Part shown: in pieces, positions 209 to 28,833 of the stretch | How the letters are laid out: the number at the start of each line of letters is the position of its first letter | How positions within the stretch are numbered: position 1 is the stretch's first letter | NCBI GenBank assembly: GCA_024220525.1 | Contig: JAMYWO010000056.1 | Location: forward strand, 16,509 to 45,341 | DNA from: Cochliopodium minus | Lineage: Eukaryota > Discosea > Himatismenida > Cochliopodiidae | Reading direction: 5' to 3' | DNA: 28,833 nucleotides | Notes under the pieces: model-generated | The model's database searches: none | Seen by the model: the letters and a program-made list of their open reading frames with translations, nothing else | What the model was told of the DNA's origin: nothing | Position numbers and translations under genes: made by a program

Positions 209-1881
209 TTAAATATGTCCCAAAATGATGTATTGTATTGGTTTAGGGAAGATTTTTTTATTGTTTTTTCCCCACTTCATGCAGCAAAGAAAGGTAGTAG
301 CAAGGATTTTAGCTTCTTTTGTGAGAACAAGACAGTGATACCTGAGATCTTTTGATTCAATAGAAATGAGATCATAATACTTTCCCTTTTCAGTGAGAGT
401 AAATTGATTTCTATCAATAAGATTAGGAGGACAAACACGGATGGTGGTTGAAGCGACATTTTTTTTGAAACAGATTGAAAGTAACAACCCACGAGGAAAT
501 CGAATACAATCAAAGACATTTATCCCATCTCTGAAACATCTAAAGTGTAAAGCGATATAGGTTTTTCCTTCAAGCTCAAGAGTCAAAAGGGCTGCTATTT
601 CAGGAAGGATCATAAATTCTTCCGGTTCAAGAGGGTATTCTTTGATGCGATTGTTTGCTTTTTTAGGATCGATTTCAAGATTAAGTTCCTTCGCTACTTT
701 GGAAAGGAAATCTGCTAAGCGAGCATCCCCATTCAACTTGATCTTTACTGTTCCTTTATCCGTGAAAACTACAATACATGAATCATCTCTTTTGGTAAAT
801 CCTTTCCAACCAATTCTTTGTGCAGACTCCAGACTTCCATAAAGGATTCTTGATTTTTCTTTTTTCTTTTTTTCTGAAAGCTTTACTTATTCATCATCAC
901 TTTGTGATGAGGCATACAAATCAAATTCTTCTTCTTCTAACCTAAAAAAAATATAAAAATATTAGTAAAACTATTTTGTTAAAACATTCAATATTTATTT
1001 CTTTTTCATTTTTTTATTATTTTATTATATTTTTTGAAATTTCTTGATTTTTATTTTTTTATACATTAAAATTGATAAAGAAATTTATTTTACCAGTGAA
1101 TTTAGGATACTGAATTGGATCACATGAATTCAATACCTCAATCGCTCTTTCCATTTCTTTTATTTCTTCTTCTTTTTTTTTTTGTAATTGTTCTTCGTAT
1201 AATCTATCCTCTTCTTCCCATCTTCTCTTTTTGCTTTGTATCACCTTCTCCATCTCTTCGTCTTCCCTTTCTCTTTCTCTTTTTCTTTTCTCGTCTTCTT
1301 CTCTTCTCTTCTCGTCTTCTTCTCTTCTCGTCTTCTTCTCTTCTTTTTCTTTGTATCTCTCTTTCCAACTTTCTGATCTCTTCAGCTTCTCTTTCTCTTT
1401 CTCTCGACATCATCCCTTCTTTTTTTAAAGCTTGTTTGTGTATATTATCACTAATTGGTTTTCTTTTCACTTTTTTTTATTTTTTATTTTTTTTTTTTAT
1501 GTTTAAATTTTTTCCAAAAAGTTTTTAGAGAATAGGAAATTTTACTTCTCGTCTTCAACATAAATTTATTTCTAATGGTTGTTATCATCTCAATTCGAGA
1601 ATTATTTATCATGTTCTCTTTTTCCATCACTTCATCATTTCTATATTTAAAATTAATGTTCAAAAATATTGGAAATTTTAAATGATCTTTACCTTTTATT
1701 TTTATATCCAGAAAACTTATTTTTGATTAAGAACCATTAAATAAAGTTTTGATCAAAAAAAAAAAGATAATAATACCTTTTTATTTTCAATTATATTTTT
1801 ATTTGGATTTAGGAGAGGATCATTTTGGTCATTATTCTTTATAATCTTTTTTATAATTGGATTTGGTGAATTAAAAAGCAT
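209..1881 (-). CDS. Unrecognised charged coiled-coil protein, six exons
   Basis: Spliced model on the minus strand: 1881-1777, 1715-1693 (23 nt), 1640-1546, 1469-1094, 936-901, 873-209, giving about 432 aa. The start is the ATG at 1881 (MLFNSPNP). All junctions are GT-AG and keep phase. Exon 4 encodes a long Arg/Lys/Glu-rich helix and needs a one-base frame change inside a purine repeat (about 1260-1350), because the open frame before it (MMSRERERE) differs from the frame after it (MEKVIQSKKRRWEEED). The 27-nt interval 874-900 contains an in-frame TAA and is best read as a mini-intron. The last exon (222 codons) encodes a compact globular-looking domain starting near SRILYGSLESAQRIGW, with alternating hydrophobic strands and few charges. 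I do not recognise its family. Coding status is well supported by splice phase and codon texture; the function is unknown. Confidence 0.65.
874..900 (-). other. Putative 27-nt mini-intron
   Basis: On the minus strand the interval begins GTGATGATG and ends TTTCAG. It carries a TAA in the reading frame of the flanking exons. Removing it joins YASSQ to a lysine-rich stretch and leaves frame intact. The alternative is an in-frame stop or a read-through codon. Confidence 0.55.
1264..1352 (-). repeat. Imperfect purine-strand tandem repeat within an exon
   Basis: On the minus strand the tract is built from GAAGAAGACGAGAAGA-like units of about 16-21 nt and encodes Arg/Glu/Lys runs. The downstream frame is offset by one base from the upstream frame, so a unit-length change or consensus error lies in the tract. 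Confidence 0.7.
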
Positions 1882-17047: not shown

Positions 17048-17649
17048 TATTTAAGTTAAAAGTGAATCAATTTTTATTTATTTTTGATCATAAACATGCA
17101 ATTTTTCAAAATATCTCTTACTATTCAAAAAAAAAAAAATGAATGAGAATAAAGTAAACGATTTGATATCCTAATATATTAATATATATCAAAATTACAA
17201 TTTATATAAATGCAGGGTCTCATAACCAACAATGAAAGGCCAAGGAGAAGAAGGAAGATGATATTATTCATCGCAATATTGTCGATAATAGTGATAATAG
17301 GAGCAGTGGTGATAATTGTGGCAATAACCACAGATCTAGAAGGCAATATAAAATAATATATATTTTTTTTTTCAGTGAAACTAATCATCAAAAAAAAAAA
17401 ATACAGAAATAGTAACTGATCAAGTGAAATCGCTCCCCAAAATAGGAAAGTTGAAGCAGAGAACATACAGTGGGTTTGTGAGGGTCAATGAAACCTATAA
17501 CTCTCATCTCTTTTATTATTTCATGGAATCCAAAGTGCCTTCAAACAAAACCATATTATGGTAAAAGAAATAGAATATTTTTTTTTATTTCTTTAAAGAA
17601 GATTTAATGTAATTTTGGAGAATCCTCAAAAATATTCTATTAAATAAAA

Positions 17650-17970
17650 TCACATGAAGATGTTTGTTTTGCTAAAATATCAAAACACTTATCTCTTATA
17701 CTTGTTTGAAGAAGAAAAAGTTTTGTTTTTTTTTATTAAAATGAAAGATTTTAACTCTCTTCTTTTAAAATAAAAAAATTTTTTTAAAAAAAAATCAAAA
17801 CCATTTAATCAAAAATAAGGTTAAAATTTATTTACTATAAAAACTTGTTTTAAAATTTAAATTCACTCACAAAAATAATAAAAAAAAAGCAATAGGGTTA
17901 TTCATATTTTTATTATTATCATTTATTCTTTGAGAATAAAACACAACAAAATTTAACATTTATTTTCCGA
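17650..17970 (+). repeat. Dispersed block, copy B (inside carboxypeptidase intron 2)
   Basis: It matches copy A at 12925-13345 in the same order and orientation. It fills most of the 498-nt intron 17561-18058, eight to ten times the usual intron length here. Copy A ends at the CDC48 start; copy B contains no coding part of CDC48. Confidence 0.8.
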
Positions 17971-19502
17971 TCTAAATTTATTTCTTTTTAAAACCAACAT
18001 TAAAATTTTTTTTACCCATTTTTTTTTTTTTACATTTTTATTTGTAATTTTTTTATAGGCTCAACGGAGGACCTGGAGCTGCGAGCATCGTTGAAGCATT
18101 CGAGCAAAATGGACCATATAATATACAACCGGACGAATCTTTTCAGCCCAACCCTTATTCATGGAACAATCACTACAACTTGTTGTAAATAACAATACAT
18201 TGAAAAAATTGAAAACAAACAAAAAAATTGAAAAATAACAAATTTAAAATAAAATTTTAAAAAATCTAAAAAATTTCAAAAAAGATATATAGACAGCTCT
18301 TTTGGAGCAGGTATTACTTTACGGACTCAGAGGAGGATATGCTACTAGTTCGGACAAATAGGCGAGTATCTATATATGGGGTTGTCTATTTTCTGAAATC
18401 AAACATCCTGAGTATAAAGATCATGGTACAAATAAAAAAAAAATTAAACTTTTTTTTAAAATTTTTTTATAAGAGCTGATTGTTGCTGGTATAAGTTATG
18501 GTGGAAAAGTAAATAAAATTCCCATCTATTTTAATTACATTATTTTTTATTTTTCCAAGTATATTCCTTGGCTTTGTTATACCATTTTGAACCAAGAAAC
18601 TCCTTCACACTCACAAAAGCAATCATAGCAAATGGGTTTTCATAATGAAAAATAGTTTCAAAATAATTTTCAATTAATTAATTTTTATATAAGATGGTAA
18701 AAATCACATTAAAATAATTTTTAGTTTCAAATTATTTAAACTTAAAAATTTTTAAATTTTAAATTTTTTTGTTAGGACGAATCCAAAGCATCAAGAGAAT
18801 CTACCTGATTTTTGAACATGAACAACAGAATGTATCCTCATTACAACTACACCCACATCAACTATTTATATGATAACTCATACATTACATGAACACCTCC
18901 CAATACCTCAGCATTATAAATTTGAAATGAATTGACAGGTTATTTAGGTAGAAAATTTTTAAATTTTTTCTTTAAATAAAGTAAAATATTCAATTTAAAA
19001 AAAAATTTAAATTAAAAAAAATTTAAAACTAGGTGATTTGCCTAGTGTTAAAAATATCTATAACATTGACTATTTTGATCAAAAATTGGGAGATTTGGAT
19101 GATTATTTCCAGAGAAAGGATGTGACCAAAGCAGTACACGCAGAGGGAATTATATTTGATGAATTTAATTTCACTACTCTCGCAAAATTAGACGAAGACG
19201 AAGAACAAGGTAAACTCTTTTAATTTTTTTTATTTCTTATTTTTTAATTTTAACAGATGCAGGCTTTTTAATACCTTTCATTTTGTCAAAGATTCCAATC
19301 TTGTTTTACAATGGAGACAAGGACTTCATCTGTAATTACATAGGCACCATTTCTTTCTTGGAGAGATTGAACTGGACTTATTCTCAGCAGTTTGTGGAAG
19401 CCCTAAACTACACTTGGCAACTCGAGACTCCCTCCAAGTCTGTGTTTGGGGGTCTTTACAAGAAAAAACAAAACTTGATGTATGCAACCATTTTCTATGC
19501 AG

Positions 19503-19660
19503 GTTTTTTATTTTTTATTTTTTTATCTTTTATTTTTGTTCATTTTTCATTTTTTATTTTTTTATTTTAATTTCTTTATTTTTATTTTTTATTTTTTATT
19601 TTTTATTTTTTATTTTTTATTTTTTATTTTTTATTGTTTTCAAAAACAATTTTTTATTAG
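19503..19660 (+). repeat. (TTTTTATTTT)-type low-complexity intron
   Basis: This carboxypeptidase intron is mostly TTTTTTA units. It is open in several frames, which produces spurious Phe/Tyr/Ile-rich reading frames. Confidence 0.7.
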
Positions 19661-19869
19661 GCCACTTCGCAGCCATTGATAAAAGAAATGAAACTCTCCA
19701 TTTGATCACAAATTTCATTGAAGATAGATTTAATGATACATATATTGACCCGAGGGAAAATCAACAAAAGGTTTCTTTAACACAAAGTTTTTCAAGAATT
19801 AAGAAAAGAAGAAATTTCAAATTAAATTCAAACTTTAATTAAAAAATTAAAAAATTTATAAATATTATT

Positions 19870-21515
19870 TCATCTCCTTTGTTTCAAAATAAAATTGAAT
19901 ATTTCGAATAAAATACACTTGGGAATCTTCCCGCAAGTGTGTTTCAAGCTGTTAAACCACTTTTGGAACATCATCATGAAAAACACTTCAATCTGGACTT
20001 GTTTGGGGTAAAATAAGTGGCTCTTCTTGTCCCAAGATAATAAAAATTGGAGTGACTCCGGAAGATCACTGTATTTAAATAAATTTAAATTTTGAAATGT
20101 TTAAATAAAATTTTTTTTTACTAGGGTAATTCATAATCATTTGGCAAAAATGTAAACCCACCTGAATTTCCTACGAATCCGCATAAATCACCTTCTAGAC
20201 AGATCCATCTTTTGTTTTTATTTATTTTATTATTTTTTTTTATTTTATTTTTCATTTTTATTTTACGTATTCCCCTTTTCAACACTGATTTGTTTCATAT
20301 TATTTTTTACACCGTGATAGTAATAGATGTTCATTTTTTCAAAGTCTATCAAACAACCTACCCGTTTCAAAGTGTCCTTATTTTCTTTCATCTAACAAAA
20401 TTTTTAATTGTAGAAATAAAAATAAATAATTAAAAAAAAAAATTAAAATTAAAATTAAAATTAAAATTAAAATAAAAATAAAAATAAAATTTTGTTAATT
20501 ATTTAAAGACTACATAGTTGTGCACAGAAGGAAGGTCTTTTTTAATAATTTTTTTTAAATCACTATTGTTGAAGTGAGCATTAAAGGAGACCTGTTGGTG
20601 TTCTTCCGCATGAGTGACAATGTCTCTTCTCGAAACTCCTCTCGACCATAAAAAATTCTTATATTCCAATTTTATTAAATTTTTAAAATTTAATTTAATT
20701 TTTTTGAATAATTTTTTTAAATTTTTATTTAATTTTATGTAAAGTATATATTTAATTATTTTTATTTTTAGAAATTTGCCATTTTATATTTTTACTAATT
20801 TTTTTAAAATAATTCAATTTTATTTTTTTATTTTTTTATTTTTTATTTTTTAAAAAAATTTATTTACACCAGTCACAACACAATGTGATCTAATACAATA
20901 AATGATTCTGTTTAAATTATTCATTAAAACTTTTTTTTACGAACTCTTGAACCAAATGTAACCTCCAGAATCATTGTCCGAATACTTTTCTTCTATCACC
21001 CCCAAACTACAGTACCCTTTGAAAAGGGAAAAAAAAAAAATTTTGTTTTAAGTGGGAAAGAAGAATTTAAAATCAAAAGATGATAAATTTGACAATTTCT
21101 TTGTATTCAAGAATTATAAAATTAAAAATTATAAAATAAAAATTAAAAAAATATTTTTAAAATAAAAAATCAATAAATTATGTCTCATTTAATGAATTAT
21201 GAAAATTATCTTCTTATAATTTACCTCCTGAAATCAGAATTGCCTCAAAGTATTGATATCCACTCATATTCAATTTTGGATAGAATTTCACTTCCTGATT
21301 CGAAGAAAATTCTCCATTCAGAACATTTTTGTCGTTTAGAATCTCCAATTTTTTGATGTGTATCATTTCTTCCAATTGAACCCAATTTTTTTTTTATTAA
21401 GTGATTTTACAAAATGCAACTTTGAAACAGAAAACATTTCGAAATGTTACAGCATAAATTATATCAATGCATCAAAAATTTGTTGGACTATAGACATATC
21501 AATTTGATCAAACAT
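19870..21515 (-). CDS. F-box/SPRY-like protein, reading frame interrupted
   Basis: Well-supported 3' exons: 20657-20514, 20391-20267, 20208-20122, 20068-19870 (stop TGA). Upstream exons are 21387-21225 and 21016-20941. The SPRY signature runs YFEAILISGGYCSLGVIEEK, SDNDSGGYIWFKSS, VGCLIDFEKMNIYYYHGVKN, then a strand with GDLCGFVGNSGGFTFLP. Upstream, MFDQIDMSIVQQIFDALI and DIIYAVTFRNVFCFKVAF, followed by NWVQLEEM, look like an F-box (IxxxIFxxL...W). F-box plus SPRY is the architecture of FBXO45-type ubiquitin ligase adaptors. The F-box part changes frame after DALI and has two consecutive in-frame TAA codons near 21399. The 21016-20941/20657 junction is out of phase unless a 29-nt mini-intron (20557-20585) or a frame change is used. 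It may be a failing gene or a consensus with errors. Confidence 0.6.
21433..21448. repeat. 16-bp perfect palindrome
   Basis: AACATTTCGAAATGTT is self-complementary. It lies in the F-box-like segment and could be chance in AT-rich DNA. Confidence 0.5.
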
Positions 21516-21600: not shown

Positions 21601-23824
21601 ATGAATTATAAGAGCCTCAATATAGCATTGGTTGCAAATCCATTAACTGGCTATGAGAATATAGTTTATAAATTTTTGATGAAGGAAAATCTGCTTCCAA
21701 AAAATCATTATTTGGAAAGAGATATAATAAAGAACCTTGTATTTACCCATAAAGATGTAATTTCAATTTCTCATTTCGATTAAAAATTATAAGTGTTTAT
21801 TCTTGGATATCATTCTTTTATTTGATCAAATAAAATTATAAATTAATTTATAATTTATTCAAAATAAAATAAAAATAAAAAAATAAATAAATAAAAAATA
21901 AAAAAAAAAAACAAATTTTTGAATAAATAAAATGAAATTTCATTCAATTAAATGATTATTTTATTAAAATTTATTTTATTTATAAAAGGAAAGAGAAAAG
22001 GAAATAATAGAAGACATATCAGTAAGAAAGATGGACATAGGATATGTTAGCGGAACATTAACAATACTACCAGGGATACCGAAATTCATCCAACAAACCC
22101 ACAAAGGATCCTTCGCAAGTGACGTGTTCATCATTCCCCTTTTAGAAGACGCTTCTTTTCAAATAGAACAACCCCTTTTTCAGTTTTACTTAGTTGCTTT
22201 TTCCCATGGAATCAAACATGTCATTGTCGCTTTACAAATTAAAGGTAAAAAAAGATCTTTCAACTTTATTTATTAAAATTTTTATTGTATTTTTAAATCT
22301 TAATTTTCCATTTTCATTTTTTATTTTTATTTTTTATTTTTTATTTCCATTTTCTTTTTTATTTATTTTTATTTTTATTTTTATTTGTTTTTATTTATTT
22401 TTATTTATTTTTATTTGTTTTTATTTATTTTTATTTATTTTTATTTTGATTTTTGAATTTGTTTTCCATTTTCTTTTTTATTTTTTTATTTTTCAATTTT
22501 AAATATCCTAAGATGTGAACACAAGTGCAGGGTTTGATAAATTCAATGAAACACTTCAAAGCAAAAAAGATTTTAAAGGGAGTACTACCATCGTTCCAAT
22601 CTACCAAAAGGACAATATCCTTGAAAACACTTCTATCAAATGGTGGAAAGGTCCAACACTTTTACAATGTAAATAATTTGATTAAAAAATTAAATAAAAT
22701 TAAAATTAAAATTAAAATAATTAAAAAAATTAATTAATTAATAAAAAAAAATAAAATTAATTAAAAAAAAATTAAATTAATTAATAAAAAAATTAAATTA
22801 ATCAAAAAAATTTAATCAATTAAAATTAAATTAATTTTTTTAATTAAATGTTTTTAATTAATTTAAAAAAAAAATTAAACAATTTGATTAAAAAAAATAA
22901 TTAATTTGATTAAAAAATTTAATCAAAAAAAATAATTAAATTGATCAAAAAAATTATAACATTGAATTAAATCATAAAATTGAAAAAGGTTTGGAACAAT
23001 GCAATCGTAATCCTGATGTAAAACAAGATGCCAGATTTTTGTTTGCGGTGAGGTAGCAATCATTTTTTCATTTTCATTTTCATTTTTTTTTTTATTGTTA
23101 TTTTTTCTTTTTCTAATCAAGGAAAGTTTGGAAAGTATCAGTGAAGAACAAAACTATTGTATCTGGTATTGTGGCCCAAGGATCAATTAACAAGGTATTA
23201 AATTATTAAAAAATTAAAACAAAAATTAAAAAAAAATTAAAAATAATTTTAAAAATAATTTAATATTTAAAATAATTCAAAATGTAAAAAATAAATTTTT
23301 TTTTTTTTAAAACTTGAGGGAGAATATGTCATTGTTTGCCCCCCTTTTCTCCAATCTAAAATCTACAGAATTAATCAATTTGAAAATTCGGTGGACAGTG
23401 CAGTTGCGGGAGATATTGTGTCATTCGAACTTCATAGTAAAAAGAATTTGAAAATAAAATTTTATGAATAAAAAATATTTAAAAATAAAAAATATTTAAA
23501 AATAAAAAATATTTAAAAATAAAAATATCTAAAAATAAAAAATATTTAAATTTAAAAAAATGTAAATTAAATTTTGGTAAAGGTGACTTGAAAAAATATC
23601 AAAAGAGGTACTATTTTGCAATCTGCTAGAGCTCCTTTCATTCCTTCTTGCCCAAAAATGGTGAAGGCTAATATCAAAATGCTTTGTAAAAGATTCTCTT
23701 TCAATATATTTATTTTTTCATTTTATTTTTTAATTTTATTCATTTTTTTTTGTCATTAATTACACTTTATTTTTTTTCATTTTTTATTTTCATTTTTTAT
23801 TTTTTATTTTTTTTTCATTTTTTA

Positions 23825-23856
<32 letters not shown>

Positions 23857-24487
23857 TCAATTTGATAAACAGCCTTTTTCGCTTATGCTTTGAAAAACAA
23901 ATTCAATTTCTTAACTTTGATACACACTGCTAACCAAAGGTTCAAGTGTAGTGAGTTCCTTGAGATTATCCAAACCAACAAAAACAAAATTGATATTTCA
24001 AATAGATTGTCCATCCGAAATGAAGAAAAAGGTTTTTATTTTTTTACACAAAATTTTTAAATTTTTTTTTAATAAATTGTTGGAATTATTAGGAGTTATT
24101 CTTGTAAAAATGACACAAGAAACACCATTTGTAAAATTTTTATATTTTTCTTTAAGAAAAGTTTTTTTTTTATTTTTTTTTTTTTGTAAGCTTTGTCTTC
24201 CTTGTAGAGAGAACAAATTTTTGGGGAGATTTTTATTCTTTGACAACAATCGTGTGATTGGCCTGGGCTCAATAACAGAATGTGAATTCGATACACCAAA
24301 GTATTGGTCCAAAACTACTCACAAAATGTTTCCCGCTCTCTTTAAAAAGAGCATTTTCACATTTTTCTTGGTGGTTAAACGATGGAGCACGGAATGGAAA
24401 AATAAAAAAAGATCTATAGCTTTTGCTTTGCCTCGTGTCATTACAATTCTTATTCTTGAAAAAATACAGATTAATAAATATATTTAA
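21601..24487 (+). CDS. eEF1A-related pseudo-GTPase
   Basis: Ten exons: 21601-21756, 21989-22244, 22513-22668, 22989-23052, 23122-23194, 23319-23436, 23583-23685, 23873-24031, 24093-24130, 24191-24487; about 473 aa, start ATG 21601. Alignment by eye to eEF1A runs the full length: NIALVANPLTGYENIVYK ([22 protein letters not shown]), EREKEIIEDISVRK (ERERGITIDISLWK), HGIKHVIVALQIKD (LGVKQLIVGVNKMD), WWKGPTLLQC (WYKGPTLLEAL), KKIKRGTIL (VKDIRRGNV), IHTANQRFKCSEF (CHTAHIACKF), LGRFLFFDNNRVIGLG (LGRFAVRDMRQTVAVG). G1 has lost GKS/T (residues 12-20), G3 DAPGH is LPGIP (79-83), and G4 NKMD is QIKD (135-138). It cannot bind GTP in the normal way. One extra base in exon 7 (AAAAAAT, 23592-23598) must be skipped to stay in frame. 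A 60-residue basic tail is added. Role unknown; possibly scaffold or regulatory. Confidence 0.8.
22300..22500 (+). repeat. TTTTTA/TTTATTT tandem low-complexity intron
   Basis: Intron 22245-22512 of the eEF1A-like gene is largely (TTTTTATTTA)-type repeats with a few G and C interruptions. It explains the Phe-rich open frames here. Confidence 0.7.
22678..22950 (+). repeat. (TTAATTAAAA)-type low-complexity intron
   Basis: Intron 22669-22988 is built almost wholly of TTAAT and AAAAA units. It contains no open exon. Confidence 0.7.
23470..23560 (+). repeat. 17-nt tandem repeat in an intron
   Basis: About five imperfect copies of AAATATTTAAAAATAAA occur in intron 23437-23582 of the eEF1A-like gene. 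Confidence 0.7.
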
Positions 24488-24697: not shown

Positions 24698-26115
24698 TTA
24701 TTTGTTATCATTCAACAAACTTTGGAGAATCTTTTTAGCCCTGGATAAATCTCTTTCTTTGCCCACATAAAATTCAACATTGCGGTCCCAAATGTCAACA
24801 AAAGCATTCAATAAAAGAAAGATGTTATGCTTGGTTTCATATTTCAGAAAATTCAAAATCCTATCTTTTTTAGAAGTATTGCTTGTATCTGGGTTAGCAT
24901 ATTTATCATCATAAATGTCTAATTTGGTGAATTCTAAAACAGCTTTGGATAATTTTTCATTGCTCGAGAAGGTCATGAATGCGAATCCTGAATTGGGAAC
25001 TTTTTCAAAAATATCTCGAAAGAAATAGATATCAACTGATGATAAGGAGCCTTTAAAAAACTTTTTTAATTTATCTGTAATCATTTATCATCAAAATGTT
25101 ACCTGAGCATTCTTGAACTTTCCTCTTTTTAGTTTCTTTGTTTTCGTTATTCTCATTGTTATTGTTTTCATTTTTATCTCTCTCTTTAATAGCAATTATC
25201 CCTGAGCAAAAAAAGTCTTTGATAATGCTTCACTAAATGTTTTGTGGTTCAAATTTTTGTTGAGAGTTTGTAAATTCATCACTGGTGATCTGACACTTGG
25301 AGTTGCTTTTATAAAAAAATATAAATAATTATTTATATTAATAAATTGACATTTTAAAATTAGTTAATTTAAAAATGATCATTTTGTGAACCTTTGGTCT
25401 CCAAATTTTTATTGGTGGGTGCCAGATATCTCCTCAAAGCTTCCAAATTAGCATTTATCAACAAAGTTCCATGATGAAGTGCATTATTGCTATTATACTT
25501 GAAAGCACAACCTGAAACCTTTATTTTATTATTAAAATTTTACTGAATTAAATATTTAAAAAAAAGTTTTTTTTTTACTTTATTTCCATTGACAAAGATG
25601 TCACTTCTCCCAGATATCTTTGCATCAATTTCAAAATGAGATTTTAAAGTTTTGCAAACCAATTGTGTATTTTTAGTTTTGTCATGTTCCTTGAGCAACG
25701 AAAGAAATGAGAAACATGAGTTACCTCTTAAATTTAAAAAAAAAAATTTTGAATTATTATTTTCTTCTTATCATGTTGAGATTTATTCTTTAAAAGTATT
25801 AGAATTCAATCAACTCTAGATATAGATATATTGAATTACAAATCCTGATATACTGTTCCGCCTCCCGAATCTCTTCTCACCAAAGCAACCCCATCTCTTT
25901 CCATCTGTTGCACTTGGCACTCTATCGACGGGATTTGGTTCCTCCCTATCACTATGTTGGATGAATTCCTCCATAAGAACAAAATGGGATTCGATAAATC
26001 GAATTGTCTGAACTTATAATTTTTCAGCTGCCAGATTGAAATATGGATCCGTACAATGTGAGATGAACACTTTCACTTTTCTCTTCTTCTCCAAAATAAC
26101 ATTTGAGAATTTCAT
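24698..26115 (-). CDS. Lipoate-protein ligase A-like protein with C-terminal extension
   Basis: Exons: 26115-25840, 25726-25579, 25518-25392, 25305-25103, 25074-24698; start ATG 26115. LplA landmarks: DPYFNLAAE, DLSNPILFLWRN, NIVIGRNQIPSIECQV, VRRDSGGGTVYQDLGNSCFSF, AKISGRSDIFVNGNKVSGCAFK (catalytic Lys in SGxAxK), NALHHGTLLINANLEAL, TPSVRSPVMNLQ. The enzyme activates lipoate or octanoate with ATP and attaches it to lysines of 2-oxoacid dehydrogenases and glycine-cleavage H protein, usually in mitochondria. Two frame changes are required: one at TTATAAG (about 26019) between LAAEKL and FRQFDLSNP, and one at CAGGGATAA (about 25200) after TFFAQG. An Asn/Glu-rich linker follows, then a 28-nt mini-intron (25075-25102) and about 125 residues not recognised as LplA. 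Either a working gene with consensus errors, or recently damaged. Confidence 0.8.
25075..25102 (-). other. Putative 28-nt mini-intron
   Basis: It begins GTAACATTTTG and ends GATTACAG. Removal joins KVQECS to DKLKKFFKGS in frame. Reading through instead meets TAA almost at once. Confidence 0.6.
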
Positions 26116-26222
26116 TTTAGAAATCAAAAACAATGATTTGGTGAATGAAGCTTGACCTTGCAATAATTAGTTTTTATTAGATTCATTTTTTTATTTTATC
26201 AACATATAGAATAATAAAAAAA

Positions 26223-26608
26223 ATGGAGAACAATTTTTCCAATATCATCGATTTTGTTGAACCCACTTGTAATCATATTTTAAAGATATAGATATCATCT
26301 TTTAATGATATTATTTAAAGTCGATTTCAATCTCAATCAGAGAAAACAGCAATCAGAAGATATATTCTATGAAAATTTGAAGAATGAAAAAGAAGGGCTT
26401 GTGGATATGAAAGATAAAATCGACAATCAATTGAAATTGCTCATGGTAAAACCTTGAATTTGATTGTTTTTCTTTTTATTAAAATCAACATTAGAAGGAG
26501 GAATCCTGCCTGAAAGGAAAATTGGAAAATCTCCAAAGTTTATTGAGACAAAGGGATAGAGAAAGAAAAGAGCAGAGAGAGAATAATGAAGAGAATAACG
26601 TGTATTAA
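26223..26608 (+). CDS. Small coiled-coil protein, 94 aa
   Basis: Three exons, 26223-26268, 26321-26445 and 26495-26608, with 52- and 49-nt GT-AG introns and perfect phase; start ATG 26223 (MENNFSNIIDFVEPTFDFN). From residue about 25 to 85 it is a charged helix with heptads (NLKNEKEGLVDMKDKIDNQL, KEESCLKGKLENLQSLLRQR), followed by an Asn/Glu tail. Size and layout resemble small coiled-coil subunits of Mediator, kinetochore or BLOC-type complexes, but I see no motif that picks one. It starts 107 nt from the divergent ligase gene. Confidence 0.75.
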
Positions 26609-26926
26609 TAAAGTGAATGTATAAATTAAACTATTTAAATCTATTTTCTGTTAAAGTTTATCGAGAATATATGTCTTATTTTTTTAATTAGAATTATGGA
26701 TGAAAAAGAAAAAGGTATATTCAAATTAGGTGAATTTATTCACACTTTATATAGTCCTATTTATCTTCAAAAAATTGATAGTTTTCAATTTTTACTTAAT
26801 TTTAAAATAATATTAAAAAATCAAAGACCTCTCCACCATTCTATCCTTTCTTTATACTGAATATAAAAAGAGCACGACTCGATTAATTATCATTAAAACA
26901 GATCACATAATCTCAAAAGAGTAAAA
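26609..26926. promoter_or_regulatory. Intergenic region upstream of CD39-like gene
   Basis: This AT-rich region of about 320 nt has no supported gene. A small open piece (MDEKEK, ATG at 26697) ends at a GTATAT donor-like site but has no partner. The last 70 nt before the next ATG contain a TATA-like stretch (GAATATAAAAAGAGC), which may be promoter sequence. Confidence 0.4.
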
Positions 26927-28833
26927 ATGGAGAAAGAGGGAAAATTGATTATTTTATTTTCTTTTATCCTATTGGCATTTCTTATATTGTTTGGTTTTAC
27001 TCAATTCTTTGAAGGTATTTAAACTAAATTTTTTGAAATTTGGCAAAATTAAAATATCACAATCTATTTATATGATAAGGATATCATTCTTTGTATAATA
27101 CCTTTTTTAAATAGGTCATCCAATAAGGCAATTTTGTGTTGTCATTACAACAGATTCTATGGGTACAAAATCTACACTATACACATGGGTAAAAAAAAAA
27201 ATATATTCAGTCTGTTTTTATCTATAATTGAGATATAATCTTCAAATAACGCATTTGAGAAAATCAAATAATTAATATTTTTCATATATCAAGCGACGAA
27301 TTATATTCGTTATTATTGCATGAAATAATGACGTATTTAGAATTTAATATTTTTTCATAGTTAATAATTTCTTTATTATTTAATATTATCATCTAATTTT
27401 GACTTTCAAAACTTTTTACCAAAAAAAAAACCATCCTTTTAGCACAGATTCAACAAAACGAGGGACGACATGCCAATAGAAATCTACGAAGTGATTGAAC
27501 TCGATCAGAATAACTCTGGATACGATGTCCTTCTTGCCGCGACTGAAGATCAGTTGGATTCCTACTTCAAAACGATCCTCAAATCAGCTTCTTCAGAGAT
27601 ACAAATGGGAATAAAGTCATTCACTCCCATCTACTTCAATTTCTTGCTTGGTACTTTTTTTTAATGCTTTTTTTTATTAAATTTAATAAAAAATAAAAAT
27701 AAATGAATCAAAATTTAATTAAATTAAATTTATTTTTTTGATTAATTTTTTTTTTGATGGAATTTTTGATTAATTCATGCTTTTTATAGTAAAAGTAATC
27801 AAAAACTTTAAGTTTTATTTTTTCTTTATATTTAAAATCATTTATTCTTGTTCCAAGAATCTTTTTTTTTTTTTTAAATTAATTAATTTTAAGATTATTA
27901 TTTTTTTCCAATATTAAACATCAACGAATTACTTTTTAATTTCTTCATTTTATTTAATTTTTTACTCTTTCTCTTATTTATTTTTTTTTTCGAAGAAAAC
28001 GGAGAAAACAAGGAAACATTCAGCGTTCTCACCAACAAAATAAACATCAAACTAAAAAACTCGGGCTTCTTCTTCGACAACACCCACACCAATTTCATCG
28101 ATGAGAAGCAGAAAGCCTCTTACTTGTGGCTCATCACCAATTATCTTCTCCGATTCTACTATATCGACTTTTATTACCTCAACAACACTGTCGCTGTCCA
28201 CCACATTTCCAATGACTCTGTCACCATTGCCTATGCAACCAACGACACGTAAATTATTATTTTTTATTTTATAATTTCAAAATTATTTTGACCTTTTTTA
28301 AAAAAAAATTTATAAATTTTTTTTATTAAATATATAAATTTTTTTAAAAAAATTGTCATTTTTTATTTTATAATTTCAAAATTATTTTGACCTTATTTTT
28401 TGTAGATATTTTTTAAACTTTTTTTTAAATTTTTTGTATATATTTTTTAAATTGTTTTTATTTTTAAACTTTAAATCAAAATTTTCTTTGAATTTTTAAT
28501 TTTTTCAAACAATTTCAATTAAATTTTGTTATTTTTTTTGTTAATTTTTTTTTTCAGAAGAAACAAGGATAGTTTGGTCGAAACAGAGATATTTGGGCAG
28601 AACTACACTCTTTACGCTGAATCCTTCGACAAGCTGGGTTTCCTCGTCAGTTTTGACAATATGTTGAACAACATCAGCACCCAAAACAAGTATACTGGGT
28701 GTCTCCCTCTCAACTACAAAGTCGAAACCGTAAAAAATTTCTTTCAAATTTTTTATTTTTTATTTATTATTTTTAATTTTTAATTTTTAATTTTTAATTT
28801 TTAATTTTTAATTTTTAATTTTTAATTTTTAAT
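26927..28833 (+). CDS. GDA1/CD39 (apyrase-like) nucleotidase homologue, incomplete at window edge
   Basis: Exons 26927-27014, 27115-27188, 27443-27650, 27996-28248 and 28558-28729 join in phase; start ATG 26927. Residues 7-28 form a signal anchor (LIILFSFILLAFLILFGF). The family layout follows: FCVVITTDSMGTKSTLYTW corresponds to ACR1 (IDAGSTGxRxxxYxW), GIKSFTPIYF to the next helix, QKASYLWLITNYLL to ACR3 (EEGxYGWxxxNYL), and IFGQNYTLYAESFDKLG to the VxLFGxxYxVYxxSFLxxG segment. Normal members cleave NTPs and NDPs in the Golgi/ER lumen or outside the cell. Here the ACR1 core, the ACR3 catalytic Glu (a Lys or Ala at that place) and the GGAS of ACR4 (HHIS) all differ, so activity is doubtful. 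The window ends in the sixth intron-like repeat, so the C-terminus is missing. Confidence 0.7.
28261..28394 (+). repeat. Duplicated 35-nt segment within an intron
   Basis: An identical 35-nt piece, with the core ATAATTTCAAAATTATTTTG, occurs at 28261-28295 and again at 28360-28394, 99 nt apart, in intron 28249-28557 of the CD39-like gene. Confidence 0.85.
28767..28833 (+). repeat. (TTTTTAA) tandem repeat at window edge
   Basis: The 7-nt unit TTTTTAA repeats with little variation to the last base. It lies in the presumed sixth intron of the CD39-like gene. Confidence 0.85.

Follow-up and report, generated by a model that had tools for sequence, protein, structure and literature searches.

The window, that is, the whole stretch of 28,833 nucleotides that was analysed, corresponds to C56:16509-45341 in the genome assembly of Cochliopodium minus (44.65 Mb in 598 contigs, 26.7% G+C); coordinates given without a contig refer to the window. 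On its plus strand lies a gene that extends from an ATG at 21601 to the end of a stop codon at 24487. The ten exons and nine introns that an earlier note on this DNA had proposed were recovered in the same model, and all nine introns, which are between 60 and 320 bases long, have GT..AG borders. The introns have a G+C content of 8.4%, as compared to 34% in the exons (with exon 7 taken from 23583). As judged by eye, the locus is flanked by a lipoate-protein-ligase-like gene (24700-27000, minus strand) and a serine-carboxypeptidase-like gene (17200-19840, plus strand). Elsewhere in the genome, there is one place of the Fe-hydrogenase type.

The exons, all on the plus strand, follow the domain order of an elongation factor: Exon 1 (21601..21756) contains the start codon and a degenerate P-loop, ANPLTGYEN, where GHVDSGKST is expected, exon 2 (21989..22244) the switch region, the G3 motif (LPGIP, within TILPGIPKF) and the first part of G4 (QIK|D), and exon 3 (22513..22668) the last part of G4, the G5 region and the sequence WWKGPTL. 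Domain 2 starts in exon 4 (22989..23052) and continues in exon 5 (23122..23194) and exon 6 (23319..23436), the latter preceded by a GAG acceptor that ends at 23318. Exon 7, which in the open-frame model covers 23608..23685, is likewise preceded by a GAG acceptor. Domain 3 is encoded by exon 8 (23873..24031), exon 9 (24093..24130) and the beginning of exon 10 (24191..24487), where it ends with LGRF; exon 10 also holds the C-terminal tail (24278..24484, residues from about 401 on), a member of a recurrent module, and the stop codon. Joining exons 9 and 10 at 24130/24191 restores, by eye, the eEF1A spacing up to LGRF. An alternative start of exon 10 after TTGTAGAGAG was dropped, as by eye it places three extra residues before LGRF.

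The alignment to eEF1A, eRF3 and HBS1 that had been suggested as a check revealed homology beyond chance. In phmmer searches, the predicted protein matched archaeal EF1A at 1.2e-13 in an end-to-end alignment of residues 50-397, followed by eRF3 (2.4e-10), mammalian Hbs1L (2.3e-6) and yeast eEF1A (9.6e-6), and the match to the genome's own eEF1A reached 4.9e-14 with 27% identity. Identity to the 13 compared rows ranges from 16.4 to 22.7%, and of the columns in which at least 90% of twelve reference rows agree, 14 of 52 are kept in the G domain and 5 of 11 each in D2 and D3. Pfam reported GTP-eEF1A_C above the cut-off (5.5e-7) and D2 below it (8.6e-5); the GTPase domain PF00009 was not reported in the predicted protein at E values up to 1, and none of the 48 places found with the PF00009 profile in the genome is located on C56. 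A genome search with PF22594 gave eight places, and the candidate gene was not listed because this domain is split over its exons. Thus, the previously claimed three-domain layout of the EF1A type is borne out to the extent that all three regions (G, D2 and D3) can be recognised, but the profile searches lack the G domain and leave D2 below the cut-off. Taken together, the comparisons confirm the predicted product as a protein of the EF1A superfamily with G, D2 and D3 regions. In the viral contigs that were searched, we found no confirmed relative of the whole protein, nor of the tail subset A2.

None of the GTP-binding motifs G1 to G5, which are intact in members of the eEF1A family, is intact in the predicted protein according to both translation and alignment. 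The replacements read from the sequence before are all present: NPLTGYEN in exon 1, LPGIP instead of DAPGH in exon 2, and QIKD instead of NKMD at the junction of exons 2 and 3. The replaced residues comprise the lysine and the Ser/Thr of the P-loop, T72 of switch I (replaced by isoleucine), D91, H95, N153 and K154. By eye, the serine-glycine of G5 is gone from the alignment, and relative to eEF1A and archaeal EF1A the switch I region is shorter by about 17 residues. It is conceivable that a nucleotide is still bound via a site that is hidden by the alignment, as in Ski7 despite its altered residues: an alignment may mislead at such a distance, and the P-loop comparison to eEF1A is an ungapped pairing made by eye, with which MAFFT disagrees by placing gaps there. 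However, an intact P-loop, which the earlier note had named as an observation that would overturn its reading, does not occur in the gene model, since GxxxxGK[ST] is absent from exon 1 and this exon is a single open frame from the ATG; moreover, D91, H95, N153 and K154 are replaced as well. We therefore regard a hidden site as very improbable. With all nucleotide motifs gone, the sequence makes it unlikely that the protein acts as a GTP switch, and we infer that the predicted protein would neither bind nor hydrolyse GTP.

The designation of the gene as an eEF1A paralogue is more specific than our tests allow. In our tree, which contained one EFL-type row, named from its motifs, and no Ski7 row, the end branch of the candidate protein is very long (4.46 changes per column), and no tested sister placement was rejected at 0.05: the AU test gave p values of 0.154 for eEF1A, 0.225 for HBS1, 0.219 for eRF3, 0.412 for the EFL-type row, 0.215 for archaeal EF1A, and 0.074 for the genome's own eEF1A. 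In contrast, the statement that the protein is not obviously HBS1 was correct. The candidate can be ruled out as the HBS1 or eRF3 of this genome because separate genes exist for both, one with 380.8 bits to Hbs1L (next best eEF1A, 325.1) and one with 391.7 bits for eRF3. The HBS1_N domain was not reported by Pfam, and the predicted protein begins at the G domain, with further upstream exons being possible.

The genome contains several other elongation-factor genes. Two divergent eEF1A genes with intact P-loops are located at C42:178787 and C231:59203-60500. Judging from their motifs, the gene at C10:234836-236260 is probably EFL and that from C34:75178 onwards a second EFL-like gene. Two tandem EFL-like genes are present at C533:1500-9500; they have kept GKST but have DVPGN and NKMS, and one of them joins the EFL-type row at 99/99 in the tree. 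The presence of eEF1A copies beside EFL-like genes makes this a possible dual-EF organism, and the candidate gene thus bears on the fate of surplus elongation factors.

The reading frame deserves a closer look. Over its 464 codons, the chosen frame is free of internal stops, as compared to 29 and 38 stops in the two alternative forward frames, and the chance of such a stop-free frame from base composition alone is 2e-16. This result depends on exon 7. From the usual-looking acceptor, exon 7 starts at 23583 and gains 25 nt (23583..23607) that contain a run of A where the frame breaks; it then reads DLKKYQKRYYFAIC followed by a stop, and the stretch that continues the homology match, KRGTILQSARAPF, is in a different frame from DLKKYQKRYYFAIC. 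The frame stays open only with the GAG acceptor, when exon 7 starts at 23608 and the 25 nt are dropped. The claim that the frames remain open over nine introns is therefore true for the 23608 splice choice and fails at the A run for 23583, and the argument for retention that had been built upon it is overstated unless the former acceptor is used. This raises the possibility that the gene died recently: a divergent EF1A-type protein with its tail would have worked until a small change in the A run of exon 7 caused a frameshift that affected domain 3 and the tail. Such a death would account for the break after DLKKYQ with a homologous continuation in another frame, and it is in line with the complete lack of GAG acceptors in 12 introns of other genes, read by eye in the genome's HBS1 (8), eRF3 (2) and eEF1A (2) genes, with the very long branch, and with a weak codon-position signal: the composition is 0.39, 0.31 and 0.32 in the candidate gene versus 0.54, 0.35 and 0.30 in the CDC48 gene of the window, and exons 10 and 8 show either no such signal or its reverse. 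However, a GAG acceptor is needed a second time within the candidate gene itself, at the one ending at 23318, and runs of A are also prone to assembly errors. Moreover, apart from the A run nothing interrupts the frame in domain 3 or in the tail, so any death of the gene must have been very recent. We hold this explanation to be a real possibility that falls short of an even chance. Thus, the A run may be misassembled, the unusual acceptor may be used, or the gene may have been broken recently.

The C-terminal tail had already been described as basic, and it is indeed present, basic and hydrophobic; what had been missed is that it belongs to a family. A search of the genome with the tail gave 126 further places with E values of 1.2 or less, and for 33 of these E does not exceed 0.01. 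With a profile built from 21 tails excluding its own, the candidate tail scores 61.2 bits, as compared to 13.8 bits for the best of 2000 shuffled frames, and the isolated tail piece scores 65.2 bits versus at most 9.7 bits for 1000 of its own shuffles. The consensus reads W....H..FP..F...I..F.L.LK, then PKPI...II, and the candidate protein carries both motifs that mark the module, W..H..FP..FK..I and PKP, at its C-terminus. Many matches lie on the minus strand, and they were suspected to be antisense or due to chance; this was rejected since the carriers have the same orientation as their tails, and most of them terminate shortly beyond the module. In the window, a second copy of the module (19873..20100, minus strand, 25.3 bits) is found at the end of the upstream neighbour gene, and a minus-strand reading frame at 212..886 (22.3 bits for the frame) has an end that matches the second half of the module. 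The neighbour gene (19873-21400, minus strand) is arranged head-to-head with the candidate and contains by eye a SPRY-like piece in addition to the tail module at its end.

Which proteins carry the module? The regions upstream of 29 of the 126 tail places, some of them overlapping, were surveyed by eye: ten have ankyrin-type repeats, nine RCC1-type repeats and three SPRY-like pieces, one is a Ras-like end, one a Cys-rich coiled-coil protein, and five were left unassigned. Among ten carrier pieces submitted to Pfam, seven match RCC1, ankyrin, SPRY or Ras families, four of these below the curated cut-off (SPRY twice, Ras, and one RCC1), and three have no match at 0.01. At C29:177258, the tail module comes after the end of a Ras-like gene, and the C-terminus reads CITF. 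Both EFL-like genes on C533 end in the second half of the module (16.7 and 17.2 bits), and shuffles of the first of these tails reached at most 11.3 bits (999 scored); as whole frames, the two genes score 14.2 bits, which is no better than the best shuffled frame, and 6.2 bits, which is lower, against 13.8 bits for that frame.

The module has a helix-LPxP-helix look that may resemble SOCS or F-box adaptors, and the domains of the carriers presumably resemble those of known adaptor-box proteins. At the level of profiles, SOCS, F-box and PRANC found no match in any of 22 tails in Pfam (nine families are listed at E values up to 1). The SOCS_box profile had no match in the genome and F-box-like domains are very numerous, with at least 150 places above the cut-off (150 scored of 469 candidates); thus, simple copying of one of these boxes would not explain the tail. 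As for the machinery that such boxes could serve, cullin matches were found on eight contigs, one of them below the cut-off, and Skp1_POZ matches, Skp1-like by eye, on four contigs, with no clear case of elongin C by eye among these four. In an AlphaFold model, exon 10 forms a hairpin and three helices, two of them long and the third short; this model is poor, with a mean pLDDT of 65.1 and a pTM of 0.25, and carries little weight. With 126 further places and no good Pfam match, the module may be an unrecognised recruitment box, and it is possibly the more interesting part of the candidate gene.

How might such a protein work? We suggest that a relative of the translational GTPases may have been rebuilt as a nucleotide-free scaffold, with the tail serving to recruit a shared partner, possibly a cullin ligase, and we consider the chances of this proposal to be evenly balanced. 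With the nucleotide site lost, GTP switching would be gone. In EF1A relatives, the barrels form a surface for tRNA or tRNA-like partners; here, the barrel domains would provide a static surface, and what binds there could be something that interacts with EF1A/EFL or with the ribosome. The tail would dock all its carriers on one common partner, a weaker step of the proposal, and in the simplest mechanism the scaffold would bring the barrel-bound partner to the tail-bound partner. That this common partner might be a cullin-RING ligase is a guess, prompted by the helix-LPxP-helix look and by the kinds of protein among the carriers (ankyrin, RCC1, SPRY-like, Ras-like). Expression and in-frame splicing of exon 7 are predictions of the gene model. 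With the last step alone a different explanation is in conflict: the tail could direct no more than localisation or oligomerisation, with no link to ubiquitin, on a body that is still a pseudo-GTPase scaffold. The lack of profile matches between the tails and known adaptor boxes fits this idea, as do the basic and hydrophobic character of the tail and the carrier at C29:177258, which by eye ends like a prenylated Ras protein; the presumed likeness of the carriers' domains to those of known adaptor-box proteins argues against it. We regard a mere signal as tenable but not as the probable function. Returning to the scaffold, its boldest form is that an elongation-factor fold became a GTP-independent substrate receptor when its nucleotide site was lost and an adaptor box particular to this lineage was added. 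Such a box would be a separately evolved equivalent of the SOCS box, placed on ankyrin, RCC1, SPRY-like and Ras-like proteins and, possibly on more than one occasion, on elongation factors; in this full extent, the idea seems unlikely to us. Few proteins are as conserved as the translational GTPases. A member that has lost every nucleotide motif but has recognisable barrels would show the EF1A fold in use as a plain scaffold, beyond what Ski7 shows.

Several known systems invite comparison. SOCS-box, F-box and PRANC proteins would resemble carriers of the module in that a short box with an LPxP-type motif stands at the C-terminus, after ankyrin, SPRY-like or Ras-like domains; the tail module differs in that none of 22 tails matches these family profiles. 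With eEF1A and archaeal EF1A, the candidate shares the three-region layout, the spacing and the best sequence matches, but it is without G1 to G5 and has an added C-terminal module. In the open-licence papers on pseudoGTPase translation factors we found no equivalent, and the available sections of a survey of translational GTPase families describe no such pseudo-GTPase case (PMC4342817). The dual-EF species described by Kamikawa et al. (2013) have a divergent EF-1alpha that, in the sections at hand, is thought to keep part of its functions only (PMC3699394); similarly, the candidate is a divergent EF1A-type gene in a genome that seemingly has EFL, too. Here, however, the eEF1A copies on C42 and C231 would play the part of the divergent EF-1alpha, and the candidate is far more divergent and has a tail. 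Like Ski7 and HBS1, the candidate is a relative of the translational GTPases, and like Ski7 it has drifted from catalysis, as far as the consulted portion of the Ski7 report goes (PMC4509514). According to the same portion, Ski7C binds GTP (PMC4509514), and an excerpt of another study reports Ski7 to be without the GRFTLRD motif in D3 (PMC2613156). The candidate, in contrast, keeps LGRF of GRFTLRD and has no GTP motif. Among the systems compared, Ski7 was the closest precedent in which a translational GTPase has moved away from catalysis.
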